From NCBI GenBank assembly GCA_019787685.1, contig JAHNUO010000050.1, forward strand, positions 1 to 64,000: a stretch of 64,000 nt of DNA, given 5' to 3'. The notes beneath the pieces are model-generated. The model had not been told where the DNA came from, did no database searches, and worked only from the letters and a program-made list of their open reading frames with translations. This DNA is from Chiua virens (taxonomy: Eukaryota; Basidiomycota; Agaricomycetes; Boletales; Boletaceae). The translations under genes were made by a program, and so were the position numbers. Within the stretch, counting starts at the first letter, position 1, and each line of letters begins with the position of its first letter. Below, in pieces: positions 19,380 through 30,052 of this stretch.

Positions 19380-19657
19380 TGGATAATGCATACCCAAAGG
19401 CAGGCTCCTACACAGCTGTCAGGGTAAGTGCAAGGCTTCATCCTAGGGATATTGTTAGTGTCACATGACGTTGTACCATATTTTACACTCCGCAACTTTA
19501 GCATTCCTTGCACTTACCACGACGGCTGCAACAAAACATTGGTAAATATTGGTGGCCACAGCTGTGCTGCCATTCGTAATCACTCGGACTTGTAAAAATA
19601 ATAGATCGTGTACACTCAACTTAGGGTTTACAATATTTTAATTGATAGTGAAGGGTC
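19380..19657 (+). repeat. Left terminal inverted repeat of the DUF6589/RecQ element
   Basis: Matches the reverse complement of 29784-30052 over its length. The inner ~130 bases, from the second GGCTGC motif to GAAGGGTC, are nearly identical; the middle ~80 bases differ. Within it, CAGGGTAAGTGCAAGG (about 19420) reappears inverted as CCTTGCACTTACC (about 19505), giving a palindromic sub-structure that is also present in the right copy. Confidence 0.85.
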
Positions 19658-20001
19658 GTTGCAGCAGAGTAGCCCATGTGGATGCCGCATGTTCTGGGCC
19701 TTGTCATCCATAGTAGATACTGCACAGAATAAACCCTACAACCCCCCATGTCTACATTCCTCCCTGTTGTCAGTGTGCTAGAAGACTGTCACATGAGCGC
19801 TACAGATTTCATTTTGGCATTACTCACTGAACCGGCATACAAGAACATGATGGTCAACGATCTTGTTATGAACGTCAACAAAATATTCAAAGCACTCATG
19901 CAACATCCTGCAGCTGATCGTAAGATAAAGGAGCAAATCTTTGGTGTGGCTGAAGAAACATACCTTCAGGAAGTGCAAAATCTTGCTTTGGGACATAGCG
20001 G

Positions 20002-20613
20002 TGAAGGTAATATATCCCGGCTGTAGTGCAATACTCAGGGGGATTGAAAGAATAGAAAGAGGGTGAAGGAATGCGATTCCATTTGACCCAGGGACAACAC
20101 TGAGTTGGTGAATGACGAATAATGGTTTTTGAGTAGTCCGAGATGAATCCGGGGTGAATCCGGATTAAAATGGATAGAAAAGCGGACATGGCAGTCCGAT
20201 CCGGATCGAGAAAATACAAGGAGAGCGAGAGAAAATGAACGTCGACTGAAAACGATGTGAGACAGATGCACACAGGCAAAAGCTACTGTATTTTGTCAAT
20301 ACAGTGAATTTATAGTCCTCGGGAATACCCTCAGACTTGTCCTAAGTAAGGATAATAATAAAAAGAAGGTTTTTGTACGGTATAAAGTTCGAGAGGCACC
20401 CGAATGTCCCTGCAAGGGCTGCATGACATGGTCTAGCCAATGCTAAGTACGAATAAGGAGCATCAAAAATAAAATAAAAGAGTCTGAGGCAAAACGGGCG
20501 CGGATACAGCAATCCGGATGAGTTCGCACAAGCAGACAGATCAGGATCGGGATCGGGTGACGACGGGGTGCGGAAACGTGCTATGCAAGCACAGGGAATA
20601 CCTATTCCCTACA
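20002..20613 (-). repeat. 3' LTR of the gag-only element (family A)
   Basis: 612 bases, TG...CA ends. Same family as 23742-25062, 34492-35106, 47171-47787 and 62597-63212. Confidence 0.9.
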
Positions 20614-20734
20614 CCCGACGGGGACTTTAGATGCTGACTGTCCCCAGTCAGCCTGATGTGTATGGGGATGTGATTGGTGGTTCAACGTGACAGTTGCAGA
20701 TGGCAGCAGATGGGTCTGGATACGAAAGGGTGAC

Positions 20735-20825
20735 AGATATGACGACAGAGATGGTGATGGCAATGAGAGTGATGAGAGTGATGACAGAGACGATGACAGA
20801 GATGACAAGAGTGATGATGGCTGCA
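20735..20825. repeat. GAT/GAC-rich low-complexity tract
   Basis: Purine-rich run of GATGAC/GAGAGTGATGA units in the non-coding 3' part of the gag-only element; the related tract in the second copy is 63340-63445. The long minus-strand frame over it (His/Ser-rich) is likely not coding. Confidence 0.6.
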
Positions 20826-21760
20826 CAGTGACGATGACCCAAAAACGACAGGATCGGATAGTAATCGCGACGGTGTGATTCGTGGCTTTTCTGTGTGTCT
20901 GTTGTCTATGGTCTCACGCATGAAGGCACGATGGATGAAGGATGGCCGTAATCTGCGATGTGAAGTGTGTGTGATGGTTTCGTGTTCATCGCAGTGATAG
21001 CATCTCTGGTATGTGTCGATCGTCCTGCGTGAATTCTGCTTGTCCACATGTGTCCGGTGTGATCCAATGTGATCCGGTCGGCCGAGTTTGCTATCCGCTG
21101 CTCGCTGTGTGATCCGAATACGAAGAAAAGAACTGCATGGTTGAATGTGAAAGAGATGATAAGAAAGAGAAAAATAAAATGAAACCAATTGACGAGTGTC
21201 CGACTCGGCTTGTCTTCGTCGTGCGTCTTTTGCGTCTATACCTGCAACGGATGCCCTTTTGTGATACCTAAAAATGTCCGGAAACGATCCGGATACGACC
21301 GGATAAAGTGCGTTGTGCCTATGCACGTTCGAAGAGCAGAAGTGGTACGTAGCGGATGAGGGCACAAATTCTAGATGGTTGCAATAACGAAGTGGTGAAT
21401 TGAGTGGTAGAAGAAATGAAAGGACTATACGATTGTGTGTTGGTTTTTCTATATGGTATTCTTTTCTTTTCTGCGATGGTTTCTTGTTCAATGAGTAATG
21501 ATCGATCACCGGACTAAACCCGGGGTGAGATAGAGATCTGCCGGACGAATACCGGGGACAAAACAGAGATGAAACGGATATCAAAAGAATAATTTCAATG
21601 ACTGAAATTGTGAAAACGCGAAAAGTTGCGTGTAGAAACCGAGGTGGTCTTGTAGACCCCTCCCCCCTGGGTAGGTCATATCTGATGACCTCCCGGTCAT
21701 CCGGATAATGCTGTGGAGAAAGGGTGAGGGAATCTCGATGATAGTAAAACAAAGAAATGG

Positions 21761-23503
21761 TCAGATTCCCGGATCGAAGGGAAAACGTGACCGAACAGTG
21801 TCGGCCGGGTCATCAAATAAACCCGATGTGAGCAGAGATGGCTGAAGCATAAACTGAAATGAAAAGACACATGCATTAGTGTAAAATTGAGAGAGAGGGA
21901 AACGGATTGGGAGAGCAGTGAAGGGCATGCGTAGTTTCGATAACCGGTTCAGAACCGATTGAACTGGTGAGGTATGGGTCCTTGGATACGGCCGTAAACG
22001 TAGAGGTGGCGGCTCGGATGAGATGGGTGGTGGCATGGTTGCGGAAATGAGGGGCGAGGTTGATAGCAGCGAGGGTGGTTTGTTGAAAAAGAACGAGGGT
22101 GATGGGTGTGGCTGCAATGCGTGCACTTCATGGTGCATAGGAACTGCGCGGAAGAGTGTGTTTAGCTTCAATCCATGGCCGGAAACCGATCGAACCGGTG
22201 AGGTATGGGTCCTCAGATACGGTCGTAAATGCAGAGATGGCGGTTTGTTGAAGAAGGATGAGGGCAATGAGAGTGGCTGCAATATGCGCACTTCATGGGG
22301 CATAGGAACTGCGCAGAAGAGTGCATGTAGCTTTGATACCCGGCCAGAAACTGATTGACCCAGCAAGGTACTACAAATCCTCGGATACGGCTGTAAATGC
22401 AGCAACAGCGGTTTGGACATGATAGGTGATGGGACAGCTTTAGGGATGAGAGACTGACTGAGCAATGCGGGTGGTGATGGATCCAACATGATCCGAGCTA
22501 TCCAGATAGATGTTTTTGGTGACGCAGCCGGCGTGCTGCTATCGCAAACGGATGGCGATGATGGTGGATCCGGTGGTGATAAAACAGTTGTGTCTTCTGG
22601 AGGCAAGTGAGGTGGTCGTGCTAAGCCAGGTAGGTGAGAGGGAAGTGAGTGGGATGAGAGTATGCGCCCGGTTGGCCGTTTTGTCATAGCCGAAAACGTT
22701 GATCTGCTGAGCTGCAATCCGGTACTATGTGACAGATGGGTAAGTGGTGGTGCAAGGTTCATCAGTGGCAACTTCATAGTCATCCGAGGTGACAGAGGTG
22801 GCAAGGCTGGCATGGTTGATGGTGAGAGCGATGGGGTAGACGAGTCGGGTTGTGGCATATCCGAAGAGGGTGAAGGTGGTTGGATCGGTCGTGGTGATGG
22901 ATCCAAGAATGTCCGGATTGATGTATGCATGAGTACATCCAGTGGCAGAGAGATTGTGGCTGAGGAGGGTACCGCAAATTCGACAGCTGTGAGAGGCGGA
23001 TCAGCACAGACAGGTTCAATTGAGACGTTACCGGATTGCTCAGGATCGCATTCTACTATCCTTGAATAGACCTGGATGGAATCACTTTGCGGCATGTGAT
23101 CTGCTAGATTCGATGAGGTAGATGCTGAGGCAAGGATGGGGTTGGTGGTGATGTCGATGGATGGTTCTGGAACGTAAAGTGGGTAGTCATCGTCGTATGA
23201 TGAGTACCAGTGCTGGACATCCGCTACGAACATTGACCAATCCGGCTGCACTGCGAGTACTTGCTGCGATGTCTGCCATAGCTCAGCGTCTTCTGGGTAG
23301 GCATACCAGATGGCTGTATTAATCTTCTGTGCGTCCGTGAGTCCAATGCTCGTAGCTAACTGATCGATGTATTTCAAAAAGGCAGGTAACTGTGACGGAA
23401 TGGTTGCATCGAAACGTGGGGTGCTAGAGGCAGTCCGGAAGGGCAGCTGTAGGAGATATCCGGGTGATGGCATAGTAACGACTCGGATGGTGGCACAGGT
23501 CAC
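21761..23503 (-). CDS. gag: Gag-like protein of the gag-only retrotransposon
   Basis: Single open frame of up to 580 residues; the ATG at 23473 (MPSPGYLLQLPF) is a plausible alternative to 23503. The N-terminal ~110 residues resemble retrotransposon capsid: RFDATIPSQLPAFLKYIDQLA, a helix-rich part with LTDAQKINTAIWYAYPEDAELWQ and WSMFVADVQHWY. The following ~400 residues are proline/serine-rich and end in three degenerate tandem units (HLRPYLRTHTSPV...LNTLFRAVPMHHEVHALQP). No zinc knuckle and no pol gene. It probably forms the particle that packages the element's RNA, with enzymes supplied in trans. The frame is uninterrupted, unlike most repeats here, which suggests recent activity. Confidence 0.75.
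   Translation of the reverse strand: MTCATIRVVTMPSPGYLLQLPFRTASSTPRFDATIPSQLPAFLKYIDQLATSIGLTDAQKINTAIWYAYPEDAELWQTSQQVLAVQPDWSMFVADVQHWYSSYDDDYPLYVPEPSIDITTNPILASASTSSNLADHMPQSDSIQVYSRIVECDPEQSGNVSIEPVCADPPLTAVEFAVPSSATISLPLDVLMHTSIRTFLDPSPRPIQPPSPSSDMPQPDSSTPSLSPSTMPALPPLSPRMTMKLPLMNLAPPLTHLSHSTGLQLSRSTFSAMTKRPTGRILSSHSLPSHLPGLARPPHLPPEDTTVLSPPDPPSSPSVCDSSTPAASPKTSIWIARIMLDPSPPALLSQSLIPKAVPSPIMSKPLLLHLQPYPRICSTLLGQSVSGRVSKLHALFCAVPMPHEVRILQPLSLPSSFFNKPPSLHLRPYLRTHTSPVRSVSGHGLKLNTLFRAVPMHHEVHALQPHPSPSFFFNKPPSLLSTSPLISATMPPPISSEPPPLRLRPYPRTHTSPVQSVLNRLSKLRMPFTALPIRFPLSQFYTNACVFSFQFMLQPSLLTSGLFDDPADTVRSRFPFDPGI
21938..22440 (-). repeat. Tandem repeats in the gag 3' end
   Basis: Three degenerate direct repeats, each opening with a CCGGxxxAGAAACCGATTGA-like stretch and containing GGATACGGxxGTAAA, at about 21938, 22172 and 22333. 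They encode the repeated proline-rich C-terminal units of the gag-like protein. Confidence 0.65.
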
Positions 23504-23722
23504 CGTGTGCCGTGACAGGTGTGTCGTCTGACTTGTCTGACGTCACTTAGAGTTCTGCGGCGGTGTAAGGGTAGTGGTGCAGGGTTCGATAGGGGTGATG
23601 ATGCTATGCAAGGAGGTGTTAACCGAGGTGAAAATTTTCTGAGAGTGAAGCGAAGGTGTGTCGTGAGTGAGGTGAATAATGAGTGGATGGGTTGTTGTCG
23701 TCTGTACCAACTTCTGGAAGTC

Positions 23723-23739
23723 CCTCGCGGTGGGCTCCA
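23723..23739 (-). promoter_or_regulatory. Putative tRNA primer-binding site of the gag-only element
   Basis: On the minus strand TGGAGCCCACCGCGAGG begins two bases after the 5' LTR; TGG is the complement of a tRNA CCA end. The matching tRNA was not identified. Confidence 0.55.
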
Positions 23740-23741
23740 GT

Positions 23742-25062
23742 TGAAGGTAATATATCCCGGCTGTAGTGCAATACTCAGGGGGATTGAAAGAATAGAAAGA
23801 GGGTGAAGGAATGTGATTCCGTTTGACCCAGGGACAACACTGAGTTGGTGAATGACGAATAATGGTTTTTGAGTAGTCCAAGATGAATCCGGGGTGAATC
23901 CGGTGTAGGAGTTAGATACTCCCTACGGTTGTAGGATACATTTTCCTCGCTCTTCATCATGTCATATCATCTCCCGTCTCATCCGCCATCGACTTCGTGC
24001 CAGCCCGGTTTCATTCCTAGCGTTTACAGATCATCCGAATCCAATCCGAGTCCAATCCGAGTCAACGCAATCCAATCCGGTTCTTTCATACATATTCCGC
24101 TTCATCCGATTTGACTTGTTCTACTCGATTTGGCCTTATTAAGGTCATTACTATCCTAACACCTTTCCTTTCTTTGTCATCTACAAGGTTTGACACCCCT
24201 TCTTTCCATACTCACCCTACGTCAATCCTGTACACTTACTTAGGGTCGGATTACCTTTAACAGTCCTGGGTTATGCCCAGGACTATAAAACCATGTTTCT
24301 AACACAAAAATATTGTCTTTCTGTGTTCAGGAGATCTCCTGTTTACTCTCCCATGCGTGAGTGAGCTGGATAGTTTCTCTTTTACCTCGTCCTATCGTTC
24401 CTCGGCGTCTCATCTACTCGAATCAATACTCTCATCGCCTCGCCTCCACCCAGATACTTTTACATCGACCGCTTTTCATTCCGGATTGTCCAGCAGCCTC
24501 TAGGACTCTTAGACAAACCTGAATCCATCATCCCTTCAAACATAACCCCCCTTGGGACGAACCTATCGCCCCACCTTTCTTCTTATCACCTATTATTACT
24601 TTTCTTCACCGGATTAAAATGGATAGAAAAGCGGACACGGCAGTCCGATCCGGATCGAGAAAATACAAGGAGAGCGAGAGAAAATGAACGTCGACCGAAA
24701 ACGATGTGAGACAGATGCACACAGGCAAAAGCTACTGTATTTTGTCAATACAGTGAATTTATAGTCCTCGGGAATACCCTCAGACTTGTCCTAAGCAAGG
24801 ATAATAATAAAAAGAAGGTTTTTGTACGGTATAAAGTTCGAGAGGCACCCGAATGTCCCTGCAAGGGCTGCATGACATGGTCTAGCCAATGCTAAGTACG
24901 AATAAGGAGCATCAAAAATAAAATAAAAGAGTCCGAGGCAAAACGGGCGCGGATACAGCAATCCGGATGAGTTCGCACAAGCAGACAGATCAGGATCGGG
25001 ATCGGGTGACGACGGGGTGCGGAAACGTGCTATGCGAGCACAGGGAATACCTATTCCCTACA
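23742..25062 (-). repeat. 5' LTR of the gag-only element, interrupted by a solo LTR
   Basis: Family A LTR split at a CCGG site by the family B solo LTR at 23904-24608. Without the insert it is 612 bases and nearly identical to the 20002-20613 copy. Confidence 0.9.
23904..24608 (+). repeat. Solo LTR, family B (copy 1)
   Basis: 705 bases, begins TGTAGGAGTTAGATACTCCC, ends TTCTTCA, flanked by CCGG at 23900-23903 and 24609-24612. Inserted in a family A LTR. Confidence 0.92.
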
Positions 25063-27549
25063 GCGGCTCACATTTCGGGGCTGCAAGTACCATGCTGCAG
25101 CAGCTGGAAGAATTCTGTGTCGAGGAGATGGCACAGGCAATGCAAATGAATGCACCTTGGCTTTGGAGCCTACTTGAGACACTGCTACAAGAGAAGCATC
25201 AGTGGAGGGGACAGGTGAACTCCCAAAGCACGGAAAATGAAGCACAGAACAACCAACTGGATGATCTAGCATCTGATGCGTTCTGGGACGAGGTTGATGA
25301 AATCGATCTTGAAGGATTCATTGGTCATATAACGGGTGATGGCAAGCAATCCTTGCTGGCTGAAGAGAGGCATACAAAACGTCGATCTGCCATCAAAGCA
25401 ATGGTTCATTATGATCAGTAAATATATATAAAATGCTAAAGAGAAACAGAAAAAAACTGTGATCTGCAGCATCTTGATGCAGGGCCTCAATCAAAAGGCC
25501 AACGCTTTGCAGAGCATTGTTGGCTTCTTTCTGCAATCAGTCCATGCCCCGCATAGCGCAATTAACATGCTTGCTCACCTTGGCATCTCAATTTCCGTCA
25601 ATGCAATCAATTTGGCCATGTGCTCACTGTCTTTGGAATCAGAGCGCTCATTGCAGACGCTTGGACGTTCACTTACTGTGGCATATGCATACAATAACTT
25701 TGATGTTGACCTCAAAAGTTATGTTCCAACAGCTGAGAAAACCAATGACTCACTAAAGCATCTTACGTCAGGGTTACTTTTTCCCCTGGCTCATGGGGTT
25801 GAGATGGAAGACCTGTGGTGCTCAGAAGTACTGTGGAAAAAGTCGGTATTCAACTTGAGCCCAGAAGTCAGAAGTGGCCCTTCACGCACCTGGTGGGATC
25901 TAATCAACCTGCACGAACCAGAGGTGCAGACAACAAATGCAAAACCGCCACAGTTCCACAGCTTCAATGTGTGGATGTTCTTGAACAACCTCTGTACCTA
26001 TGGGCCAAAGTATTTTCATCAGTTCAAGCCTCAGATTACACCCCTGAGTCCAATAGAACCGATGCCGCTTGTCAAAACACCTATTTTTGTGGCACAAGCA
26101 ATGAATATCAACAACTCAACGGTTAGCAGCAACATCCGTGCCATTATTGAACTCCTTAAGCAGGGTGGGATCTACAAGTCTGCCCAGTCATCAGCAGGAG
26201 ATGATGACGATGATGACACCATGGATGGATGGGACTCACCAGACATATCCGAATATGTTATCCTCATACATGGAGACCTTGGCACAGGCGAATGACTCTA
26301 TGTCGCTCAATTGCGCCGTTCCATTGAGGCCACCCCCTGGCATCGTTTCCAGCATGTGGTATTCATCCCTGGGCTCTTTCACTTGAAGATGGCATGTGTG
26401 GATGTGTTATGGCACTGTTTCATCCTTCCGCAGGCCGCATGTGAGGATGAAATGTGTCTAATGAATGATTTAGCAATACTCCGGCCGAGAGAAACATTCA
26501 CCTTTATTTCAAAACCTGGGTTTCATCGGATGCATCAGCTCATTGGCCATGCAGGCATATGCTGGCGCCTCAATTGCTGGTGGGCATACATTCACAGCAG
26601 GATGCCTGAACTCACAAGCCTCGATGAGTTCGCATCCACAAAGCCCACACTGGACAACCTAAGGGTGATGGCAGATGAAATCATGAGACAATTTGTGGGC
26701 ACTCACGAAATACAAATGGAGCGCATGAAGCCAGAGGAATCATGAGACATTCAATTTGAGAACACAATCCTGCTAAACAAGTACTTTCTACTATATGAAG
26801 AACTCTCATTCGCAATGAATTCGGGTGATGTTGGCCGCGTGGAGATTTGCATTGTCAACTGGATTCCCATCCTGAAGGCCGTTGGAAAGCATAAGTATGC
26901 ACTTCATATGCAGAACTTCCTACTCAACATACACTTTGTTTACCCACCGGGCCTGAGGCAAGCAGTCCGCTACCATTTGCTCATGAATCCCACTGGACAG
27001 CCAATGAAGTGGCGGGCTGTGGATTGGTGTGTCGAACTCAATAACCTGTTTATGAAGGTGCGTGACAGTATGTCCACCTTTAAACTACTCTTGTCGGATT
27101 GATATCTTGCATTCCAGGTGAAAAACAGCAGCCAATATTCCAATCGAACGGTTGATCGGATTATCCTCGAATCTCCATTAGTTCAAGTGTATCGGAATAT
27201 CCAAAAAATCATTCAGACAGATATTGATCAGACCCATCTAACTGCCAGCCATGCCGCCCCAGATATGACAAAGACATTCAAGAAACTCCAAGAATGACTC
27301 ATGTTGAGCTTGCCTCATATTGTACGTAAGGGTAGAAAAAGCCAACACGTCGTTGAAGACCTTAGTGACAAGGGTGTAACAATGATGGAGAGAGCAAATT
27401 GCGGCGAAGAAAATATGATCGAGACCAGAACAGAGCAGGAGCAGTCAGAAGTGGATAGGGCTGAGCTAGAGGACGTATTGGTCGAACTACTGTGAGAGGT
27501 GCTGTGTAACATGGCCAAGAGTCAATAATTATCGCATGTAATGCTCTGC

Positions 27550-29761
27550 TACTTACGTTTTCCTTTCCCGTGGTGGCAGCGTTGGACTGCTGCTTCAGGC
27601 AGATCTTGTTCCTAGCTTTGGTAGATACGAAGTGAGCTTCAAGTTAGTCACCTTGAGAGCCTGAACACTTACCATTGTGGCCCTCCTGGCCACACACCCC
27701 ACACTTGAAGCAATGCTTGACAACAGGAGAAGGAGATGGGGCTCGTACACCAACGGCGTGAGTGCTATTGAGAGCCGTGGTACTAGGCTGGAGAGGAGTG
27801 GAAACAAAGGGTGACGGACAGGGAGGGCGATAGGCTTGAATGAGCCCAATGATTTTGTCCGCAAACTGCTCGCTTCTCGTCCACCCCGTCTCTCACTTGA
27901 GATCCTGGATGTTCTGGATTTTATCGTAGTGGGCATAGTTAACGATGGAATCAAGTACTGCATTGGTCATAATGAGGCAGGGCCCGTGGCAGTTGAGCGC
28001 TGTCCATCCGAATAGTACCGTTGTCTTGGCCTCACGCCACTTGTGAAGGGCGTGCACTAAATCGTGGTCACATTGTTCCTTGGTATACTTGGAGATGCGC
28101 GAACGTTGCATCGCATGGGGTGGCTTAGAGACGGTGGATGTAAAGGCCAGGAATTCGGTGGGGTTGTGAATGTTGCAGCAGATGGTGGGTTTCTGGACGT
28201 GACAACGGTCACAGCCTTGTTTGGCGTCCGTATCACACTGGAGGTGGTCATTGTCTGAGAAGCATTAACATTGAGTATGTATACACCAGTCATGCCGTTA
28301 TCAAAAACTCCCACCAGCTACTTTGTTATCAAAACAGCCATCAAAGGCCACCCTATGGCACTCCACACCTGGACGGCTTCCTGCGTTTATAAGAAGCTCA
28401 ATCCCGGGATCAAGCTCCCGTTTCCTGCGCTTCGTGGGACGCGACGGCTCAGGTATGTTCACATCCTTGGCCTTTCGTTTGTGTGTCTCCGCTTCTGACT
28501 GTTGGGCTTTCTTGGCTGCCTTCACAGCTTTTTCATCATCAAAGTGTTCTCAGCAAGTAGTAGTGCTGTGCCAGTGAGTTCTCTGCTACACGCTGCACAC
28601 CCAAACTGCTGCCATAGTGCTGAAAGGTTACAGGTTACTCTCCACTGAACTACCAAAGCAATGTCTGGCACATCCATACCCTTCGAGCCTGGTCAACAAA
28701 CCGTGTGCACTGATGGAAAGAGACCCACCATCCCAAACGAGGTTGTGGTACAAAGGCCCCAGGTTTGCCCCGTTGTCAAGTTATCAAATTCCGCTTCTTT
28801 GAAGGTATCAGACATGTCCGAGTTGAACCACTTGATTCTGTCTTCTAGGCCTTGCGGTAGACGCTTTCGCAGGTAATTGGCAGCTGCTATTGAGTCTGAA
28901 ATGTCATTGAAGAATACAAGGAATTTTGGCAAAGGAGCGTTGCTCAGCTGATACCCCACTGGTACCAAGAAAGCGAGGTCAGCGAAACTATTGAGTGCGT
29001 ACTGTATTTTCTTGACTCCAATTTTGATGTTAGGGCGGTCGCTAGAGTGTCGCAATATGGTGGTTCGGTCCGCATGCATCTGAAGTAGCCACATGACGTT
29101 GTTTGTCATGCTCTTTGGAAGGGTGGCGGATGTAACAAGCAGTGCTACTGATGGAAGCACGTAACAGATATGTCCAAGCTCCCTATACTCTGGGTGGAAT
29201 TCGCCCCAATCTTGAAGGCAGTGGGCCTTGTCAATGACGATGCTGATGATGTGGGATGCAAAGTGTGTGTCCTTCATAATCTTTTCGAATTCCCCATCAG
29301 GTTTCATCATTTGCTCTGGGCTGATCACTATAGCTCTATATTTTCAAGTGCAGATGGCCTAGCATGTTAAGGGTAACTTCTACTTCAGTCACCTGTTTGC
29401 TGAAAAATATTCGACTTACATGAAAATTTGCAGGGGTTGCTGTTTCTGAGCTGATTGCTATGGCCAGAATGCGAGCCTTTGTAAGCGCTGCAACATTTTG
29501 TTTCCCTAGCAAATTTAAAGGGGTGACGATGATTTGGATACCATCTGGACGGAACAGGAGTGGTAGCCAGAAGGTGAGCGTTTTCCCCATACCAGTGCCA
29601 GCTATACACAGGACATCTTTGCCTCCCTCCAGAAGTGTCTTTGCTACCTCAATCTGCCAGAGACATGGCCGCACATGGAATACTTCCTGTGCATGCACTC
29701 AGATTGCGGAGATTGTGGGTATCAGTGTGGGAGTTGACTGATCAGGAGGTGTCGCCATCAT
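27550..29761 (-). pseudogene. RecQ-like DNA helicase, decayed
   Basis: RecQ-family ATP-dependent 3'-5' helicase remnant, coded toward the DUF6589 gene. From 29761 (MMATPPDQSTPT): VFHVRPCLWQIEVAKTLLEGG, Walker A AGTGMGKTLTF, IVTPLNLLGKQ, then VISPEQMMKPDGEFEKIM, VIDKAHCLQDWGEFHPEY, LLVTSATLP, TILRHSSDRPNI, FLVFFNDISDS, WFNSDMSDTFKEAEF and GMDVPDIALVVQW. The DEAH box has become DKAH and motif VI, normally Q-R-x-G-R, reads QQFGCAACS, so the ATPase is dead. Stops appear after SAI and before KYRAIVISPE, both TGA. The C-terminal extension (LDPGIELLINAGSRP; HALHKWREA; MTNAVLDSIVNYAHYDKI) and a terminal zinc knuckle (CFKCGVCGQEGHN) match the long mushroom RecQ-like proteins. The exact 3' end is not fixed. 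Confidence 0.82.
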
Positions 29762-29783
29762 GAACAGCCTATATGTGTTTGAA

Positions 29784-30052
29784 GACCCTTCACTATCAAT
29801 TAAAATATTGTAAACCCTAAGTTGAGTGTACACGATCTATTATTTTTACAAGTCTGAGTGATTACAAATGGCAGCACAGCTGTGGCAACCAATTTTTACC
29901 AATGTTTTGTTGCAGCCATCATGATAAGTGCAAGGTATCTTAAGGTTGGCGGTGTTTCAAATTCCAATATGCTTACTAATACCCCCTAAACCTCGCACTT
30001 ACCCTGATGGCTGTGTAGGAGCCTGACCCAAAGGGGGGTTATGCATCATCCA
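29784..30052 (-). repeat. Right terminal inverted repeat of the DUF6589/RecQ element
   Basis: Inverted partner of 19380-19657. Shares GGCTCCTACACAGC at the outer side, the ACACTCAACTTAGGGTTTAC block and the inner edge GACCCTTCACTATC. The RecQ-like start codon lies 23 bases inside it. Confidence 0.85.

Follow-up and report, generated by a model that had tools for sequence, protein, structure and literature searches.

A Two-Gene Element Bounded by Inverted Repeats

The first 64,000 bases of contig 50 of the Chiua virens (Boletaceae) assembly (48.3 Mb, 136 contigs), hereafter the window, carry at positions 19401–30025 what is in all likelihood a degenerate DNA transposon of the AcademH type, bounded by terminal inverted repeats (TIRs), in which a DUF6589 protein would be the DDE transposase and a RecQ-family helicase its accessory. 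The element starts with CAGGCT at 19401 and stops with AGCCTG at 30025. Its left (19401–19657, plus strand) and right (29784–30025, minus strand) TIRs are 83% identical over 259 columns (E-value 4e-72), which bears out the inverted repeats described in an earlier note on this stretch, whose outer limits, 19380 and 30052, overshoot by 21 and 27 bases. The left TIR is also 98% identical to one TIR of a copy on contig C10. The 16-base terminus of the left TIR, CAGGCTCCTACACAGC, is exact at both ends of the element and has no other exact occurrence within the window; if as many as three mismatches are allowed, it has three matches there, a number reached by none of 100 shuffles. Immediately outside lies a perfect 9-bp target-site duplication, ACCCAAAGG, at 19392–19400 and 30026–30034, which fails at 10 bp and is absent from the earlier description.

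As had been proposed, the repeats enclose two convergent genes, identified here by Pfam and TIGR00614 matches: DUF6589 on the plus strand and a helicase on the minus strand. A Pfam scan of ten window open reading frames (ORFs) gave DUF6589 and DEAD, plus one subthreshold ribosomal match. DUF6589 is matched by three plus-strand ORFs (E-values 5e-13, 2.5e-24, and 5e-33), which form a single frame interrupted by stops. The 5′ coding part of the gene (19730–20001, plus strand, start approximate) is collinear with a 207-aa ORF of the C10 copy, the matching part of which aligns to residues 6–200 of Lanmaoa P0001; the remainder (25063–27490, plus strand, 3′ limit approximate, profile match at 25930–27252) contains in-frame stops and has Asn in place of Asp at a candidate catalytic position. 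The two parts are separated by a nested long terminal repeat (LTR) retrotransposon (20002–25062), without which the unit measures about 5.6 kb, in line with the earlier estimate.

Copies and Empty Sites in the Genome

A search of the genome with the left TIR returned 18 places, and 17 loci were examined for element ends. In ten of the 17, we found CAGGCT…AGCCTG ends flanked by a perfect 9-bp duplication, none extending to 10 bp, and the sequence of the duplication varies among these ten elements. Five contain both genes: the window element, C10:591564–597838, C3:2235957–2251914, C4:564158–570203, and C32:235246–268669. Another, C1:1248084–1278311, has a weak DUF6589 piece (25.0 bits, against a family cut-off of 27; its interior was read through this match only), C1:3334675–3336252 carries a fragment of RecQ, and the remaining three are short (C7:1934151–1935399, C8:1376673–1377879, and C18:519958–520735). 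Near-perfect duplications, with one mismatch at C1:1598200 and C24:7429 and two at C10:60259, were also observed, and no matching end pair was found at four of the 17 loci (C3 at ~296–306 kb, C14 at 670–679 kb [L021], C14 at 325–332 kb [L056], and C40 [L058]). A script scan of 13 loci found a 9-bp match in seven of 111 end pairs, versus none of 111 when the flanks were shifted by 20 bp.

The genes are convergent in the window, C10, C4, and C32 elements; in the C3 element, 16 kb long with nested sequence, the outer pieces of DUF6589 keep this arrangement relative to the helicase, and a middle segment (residues 418–752) is inverted. The C32 element is swollen to 33 kb and its genes are pieces (DUF6589 residues 1–506 and a 207-bp helicase match). 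The ends of the C4 element (~250 bp each) differ from those of the window element, the left having no match and the right 74% identity over 85 bp, and the identity of its DUF6589 protein to P0001 reaches 58.5% at most. Both genes are present (the C4 interior being read through search loci only), so the pair persists in a distant family.

The earlier note had held that inverted repeats occurring without the genes would count against a mobile pair. Such repeats do occur, as elements of 0.78–1.25 kb (C7, C8, and C18), which, given their perfect duplications, we regard as nonautonomous derivatives of the usual form and not as a refutation. In the C7 and C8 elements (1.2 kb), only the TIRs match the window element, with which alone the interiors were compared; the C18 element (0.78 kb) adds to the TIRs ~210 bp from inside the left TIR, which includes the point near which the DUF6589 frame begins. 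Between the two TIRs of C18, identity is 100% over 249 bp, and between those of C7 it is 97.6%, which suggests later movement or conversion. Two other short TIR derivatives, C10:60259–60816 and C24:7429–7982, have an identical left flank, CTCTTTCCT, perhaps because certain targets are preferred or because both lie in the same repeat.

Empty sites were sought within this one genome by joining the flanks of the window, C10, and C1 elements. The window flanks, joined via a single ACCCAAAGG, are 98% identical over 168 bp to C9:22617–22784, unbroken over the junction, and match two more copies on C14 at 89%, the aligned one differing at the target bases. The joined C10 flanks are 89% identical to C9:1014677–1014839 over the junction, and the junction of the C1 flanks is covered by two matches at 75%. 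The elements had inserted into repeats, which makes these empty sites paralogous. With ends, both genes, and 9-bp duplications recurring across the genome, they support the earlier proposal of a mobile pair.

DUF6589 as a Candidate DDE Transposase

The predicted fold of DUF6589 matches DDE transposases, among them Hermes, the P element transposase, Tn5, and RAG1. A candidate D-D-E triad, D282/D473/E726, is conserved, the last residue in 51 of 53 rows. Another glutamate, E634, is invariant (57 of 57 rows) and was discarded because a second group of DUF6589 proteins has Q, R, N, or Y at this position; E726 was preferred because E634 failed, and also because the alignment with Hermes extends to model residue 764, corresponding to Hermes residue 609. 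The catalytic Glu of Hermes lies about 37 residues ahead of the latter. The fold comparison and the conserved D-D-E set thus back the suggestion of the earlier note that DUF6589 is an unrecognized transposase, which, judging from these models, it very probably is, with RecQ as an accessory.

The second group, about 20% identical to the DUF6589 of the window, was found at C40 (L058), C21, C51, C36, C9, and C14. At the C40 locus, the DUF6589 gene faces a convergent, weakly RecQ-like ORF (recQ_fam E-value 0.008, DEAD E-value 0.003, both below cut-off); a 48-bp imperfect inverted repeat is present there, but no CAGGCT pair was found. On C14, ORFs recognized by eye as Helitron-Rep-like (L056:997–2399) adjoin a divergent DUF6589 ORF.

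Protein searches with DUF6589 returned 658 and 324 clusters, sets that may overlap and that consist partly of metagenome sequences. The named organisms among the matches listed (best 120 of 658 and best 120 of 324) are, we assume, all basidiomycetes. In the literature searched, from which most subscription papers and the paper defining AcademH are absent, DUF6589 is not mentioned, and the papers mentioning PF20231 concern, by their titles, unrelated subjects. What is new here is the reading of DUF6589 as, very probably, a DDE transposase.

The RecQ-Family Helicase

The helicase core of the window element (28548–29698, minus strand) has a Walker A motif GTGMGKT and DKAH in place of the DEAH box. 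It is spread over at least two frames, which implies introns or frameshifts. Two minus-strand ORFs match DEAD, one with an E-value of 3e-9, which passes the Pfam cut-off, the other with 1e-5, slightly short of it. The pieces of the C10 counterpart match TIGR00614 (recQ_fam) with E-values of 3e-20, short of the model's whole-protein cut-off, and 3e-6. The tail includes, in translation, CFKCGVCGQEGHNGKC (27665–27712, minus strand), a zinc-knuckle-like motif. These matches are consistent with the RecQ-like helicase with a zinc-knuckle tail originally described.

A query made by joining the C10 helicase pieces matched 96 proteins (7994 candidates scored). All named organisms in the first 77 of the 96 rows are presumably basidiomycetes, and the weakest 19 include bacterial proteins. 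By hand count, with contigs equated by length and organism, at least 12 of the 96 rows share a contig with a DUF6589 match among the matches listed; the remaining 84 share none with the DUF6589 matches listed. The two genes occur together on a 6,466-bp Termitomyces contig, with consecutive locus tags, and on a 10,158-bp Hygrophoropsis contig, and it is only on such short contigs that their spacing is bounded.

Affiliation of the Element and Alternative Explanations

The AcademH lineage of the Academ superfamily was reportedly defined by Kojima in 2020, and the partner of AcademX is an XPG-type nuclease. Passages of the Academ literature describe duplications of 9 or 10 bp for AcademH and of 3 or 4 bp for AcademX, linked to a helicase and a nuclease, respectively (PMC10045372), mention a "RecQ Helicase in Academ" (PMC3627910), and report AcademH from Basidiomycota, Ascomycota, and Mucoromycota (PMC10799480); putative nonautonomous Academ elements were noticed in a mushroom genome, according to a passage of PMC8290104. 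The element described here resembles AcademH, so described, in being a fungal DNA transposon with a RecQ-type helicase and duplications of 9 bp; it also has TIRs and a predicted DDD/E transposase (fold match, D282/D473/E726). As far as these passages go (PMC10045372, PMC3627910, PMC10799480), the combination of TIRs, RecQ-type helicase, and 9–10-bp duplications is thus of a kind already known, namely AcademH. From this comparison, membership of AcademH is probable.

Several observations weigh against this interpretation. The likeness to AcademH, and with it the probable affiliation, is one of architecture and duplication length, as given in published descriptions. With Foldseek alone, the best PDB match was Hermes at an E-value of 0.021, so that none reached 0.001 or less, and no PDB sequence matched the DUF6589 profile below 0.2. 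For the second group, the predicted model is of poor quality and resembles known folds weakly. In that group, E726 is a gap in ten of 16 rows, and D657 and E662 (16 of 16) as well as E648 (14 of 16) are also conserved, so the identity of the third catalytic residue is uncertain. Moreover, C7 and C8 have TIRs without genes, and all three closely read copies (window, C10, and C3) are damaged.

The lack of a sequence link to any PDB transposase, the scatter of the fold matches across hAT, P, Tn5, ISCth4, RAG, and Mos1, and the absence of any paper tying DUF6589 to Academ in the literature searched, including the Academ passages, would all suit a scenario in which DUF6589 forms a DDE superfamily of its own, outside Academ, that gained a RecQ helicase and a 9-bp stagger independently. 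This we consider quite unlikely, given that a RecQ-type helicase and 9–10-bp duplications coincide in AcademH, a lineage reported in Basidiomycota in the passage available (PMC10799480). KolobokH is likewise a fungal DDE transposon lineage that carries a RecQ helicase. Kolobok elements are described, in a passage of PMC9587614, as having TTAA 4-bp duplications and 5′-RR…YY-3′ ends and as sharing C/DxxH in the stretch that separates the second D from the E, whereas here a varied 9-bp duplication was found in ten of the ten elements listed, the ends are CA…TG, and no column from D473 to E726 shows C/DxxH in more than nine of 57 rows; this affiliation is accordingly most improbable. The presence of a helicase could also point to a rolling-circle or copy-out replicative element with the helicase as its main engine. 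Helitrons, however, are not known to have TIRs or target duplications, and the long TIRs, the 9-bp duplications, and the match of DUF6589 to a DDE fold make such a Helitron-like element very unlikely. A further reading is that host genes happen to lie between inverted repeats unrelated to them, or that the arrangement is an artifact of assembly or segmental duplication. The TIRs without genes at C7 and C8 and with only a sliver at C18 would be in keeping with it, but exact 9-bp duplications, an empty site, and the gene pair in five bounded elements on several contigs leave it barely conceivable.

Hermes has an RNase H-like core with a helical insertion, and hAT (Hermes) and the P element are the best structural matches to the predicted DUF6589 fold. 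Identity to them is, however, only ~10%, and the present element differs in its 9-bp duplications, the lack of a conserved C/DxxH, and its helicase partner; hAT was rejected on its usual duplication of 8 bp. Passages of PMC12730594 give this length for hAT (5–7 bp also occurring), 8 bp for Zisupton, and 2–3 bp for Plavaka. KDZ and Plavaka are common basidiomycete DNA transposons (PMC8290104, in the passage available); the Zisupton and Plavaka lengths differ from the 9 bp observed here, where Pfam gave DUF6589 and DEAD. AcademX was likewise rejected, the duplications here being of 9 bp and none of 14 XPG_I matches in the genome having a listed DUF6589 match closer than 10 kb; one XPG locus, L063, showed no DUF6589-like ORF when read by eye. 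Five XPG_I matches are of near-identical extent (C32:102798, C32:110855, C26:286709, C10:1607590 [L063], and C17:641413), and L063, which also carries a 298-aa ORF downstream of its match, might belong to another mobile element.

Nested Insertions and Decay of the Window Copy

The 5.06-kb LTR retrotransposon (20002–25062), flanked by GCGG and delimited by its direct repeats, is absent from the C10 copy. That it lies inside the DUF6589 gene is seen from the C10 copy, which is continuous there, with one 207-aa ORF spanning the point. Its LTR-like ends are at 20002–20613 and 23742–25062, the second interrupted by a 705-bp insertion (23904–24608) whose TGT…TCA ends suggest a solo LTR; relatives of this insertion are present in the helicase gene of C10 and within the C3 element. 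Within the retrotransposon, 21953–22370 contains direct repeats of 140 and 83 nt, 78–79% alike, with spacings of 165 and 231, beneath which runs a 593-aa stop-free minus-strand frame without a Pfam match. In C32, an apparent further insertion of ~7.4 kb (C32:261256–268657) lies in the right TIR, about 15 bases from its end.

In an alignment of 5,560 bases that leaves out nested insertions, the window and C10 copies differ by 191 transitions and 24 transversions. C-to-T and G-to-A changes in the window affect 131 of 562 CpG bases of C10, versus 26 of 2169 other C/G bases; in the reverse direction, C10 has lost 18 of 332 CpG bases, versus 16 of 2273 others. The sequence is thus that of a relic, probably decayed under CpG methylation. 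The first candidate catalytic Asp replaced by Asn, the in-frame stops, the split DUF6589 gene, and the change from DEAH to DKAH imply that this copy is inactive. The C10 copy has an insertion in the helicase, an altered Walker A motif, and one stop in the DUF6589 match.

Proposed Mechanism and Implications

In the AcademH-type transposon proposed here, DUF6589, with its predicted RNase H fold, would bind to the TIRs and cleave the DNA at CAGGCT/AGCCTG. It would then attach the element ends to the two target strands at positions 9 bp apart, and repair would produce the 9-bp duplication. The convergently encoded helicase may unwind the ends or the target, or aid repair of the donor or of the gapped product, and the short derivatives with the same ends could be mobilized in trans. 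Nothing specific points to the replicative route that had been suggested: the DDE fold and TIRs, the constant length of the duplications, and the existence of short derivatives are all in keeping with cut-and-paste, which we infer in preference to copy-out, although copy-out by a DDE enzyme is compatible with the same data.

There is a small chance that DUF6589 represents a distinct DDE superfamily, or an unrecognized deep branch of Academ, whose members kept transposase and RecQ paired even at ~20% identity; at that distance, the pairing is so far weak and seen at the C40 locus only. If this were true, the helicase would be an obligate partner, for example, where the target is opened by cuts 9 bp apart. 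More generally, many "unknown" mushroom genes (the 658 and 324 clusters, which may overlap) probably encode transposases and should be masked before genes are counted. The family, with its clear boundaries, its empty sites, and its short derivatives, also offers material for asking what a DDE transposon requires a RecQ helicase for.
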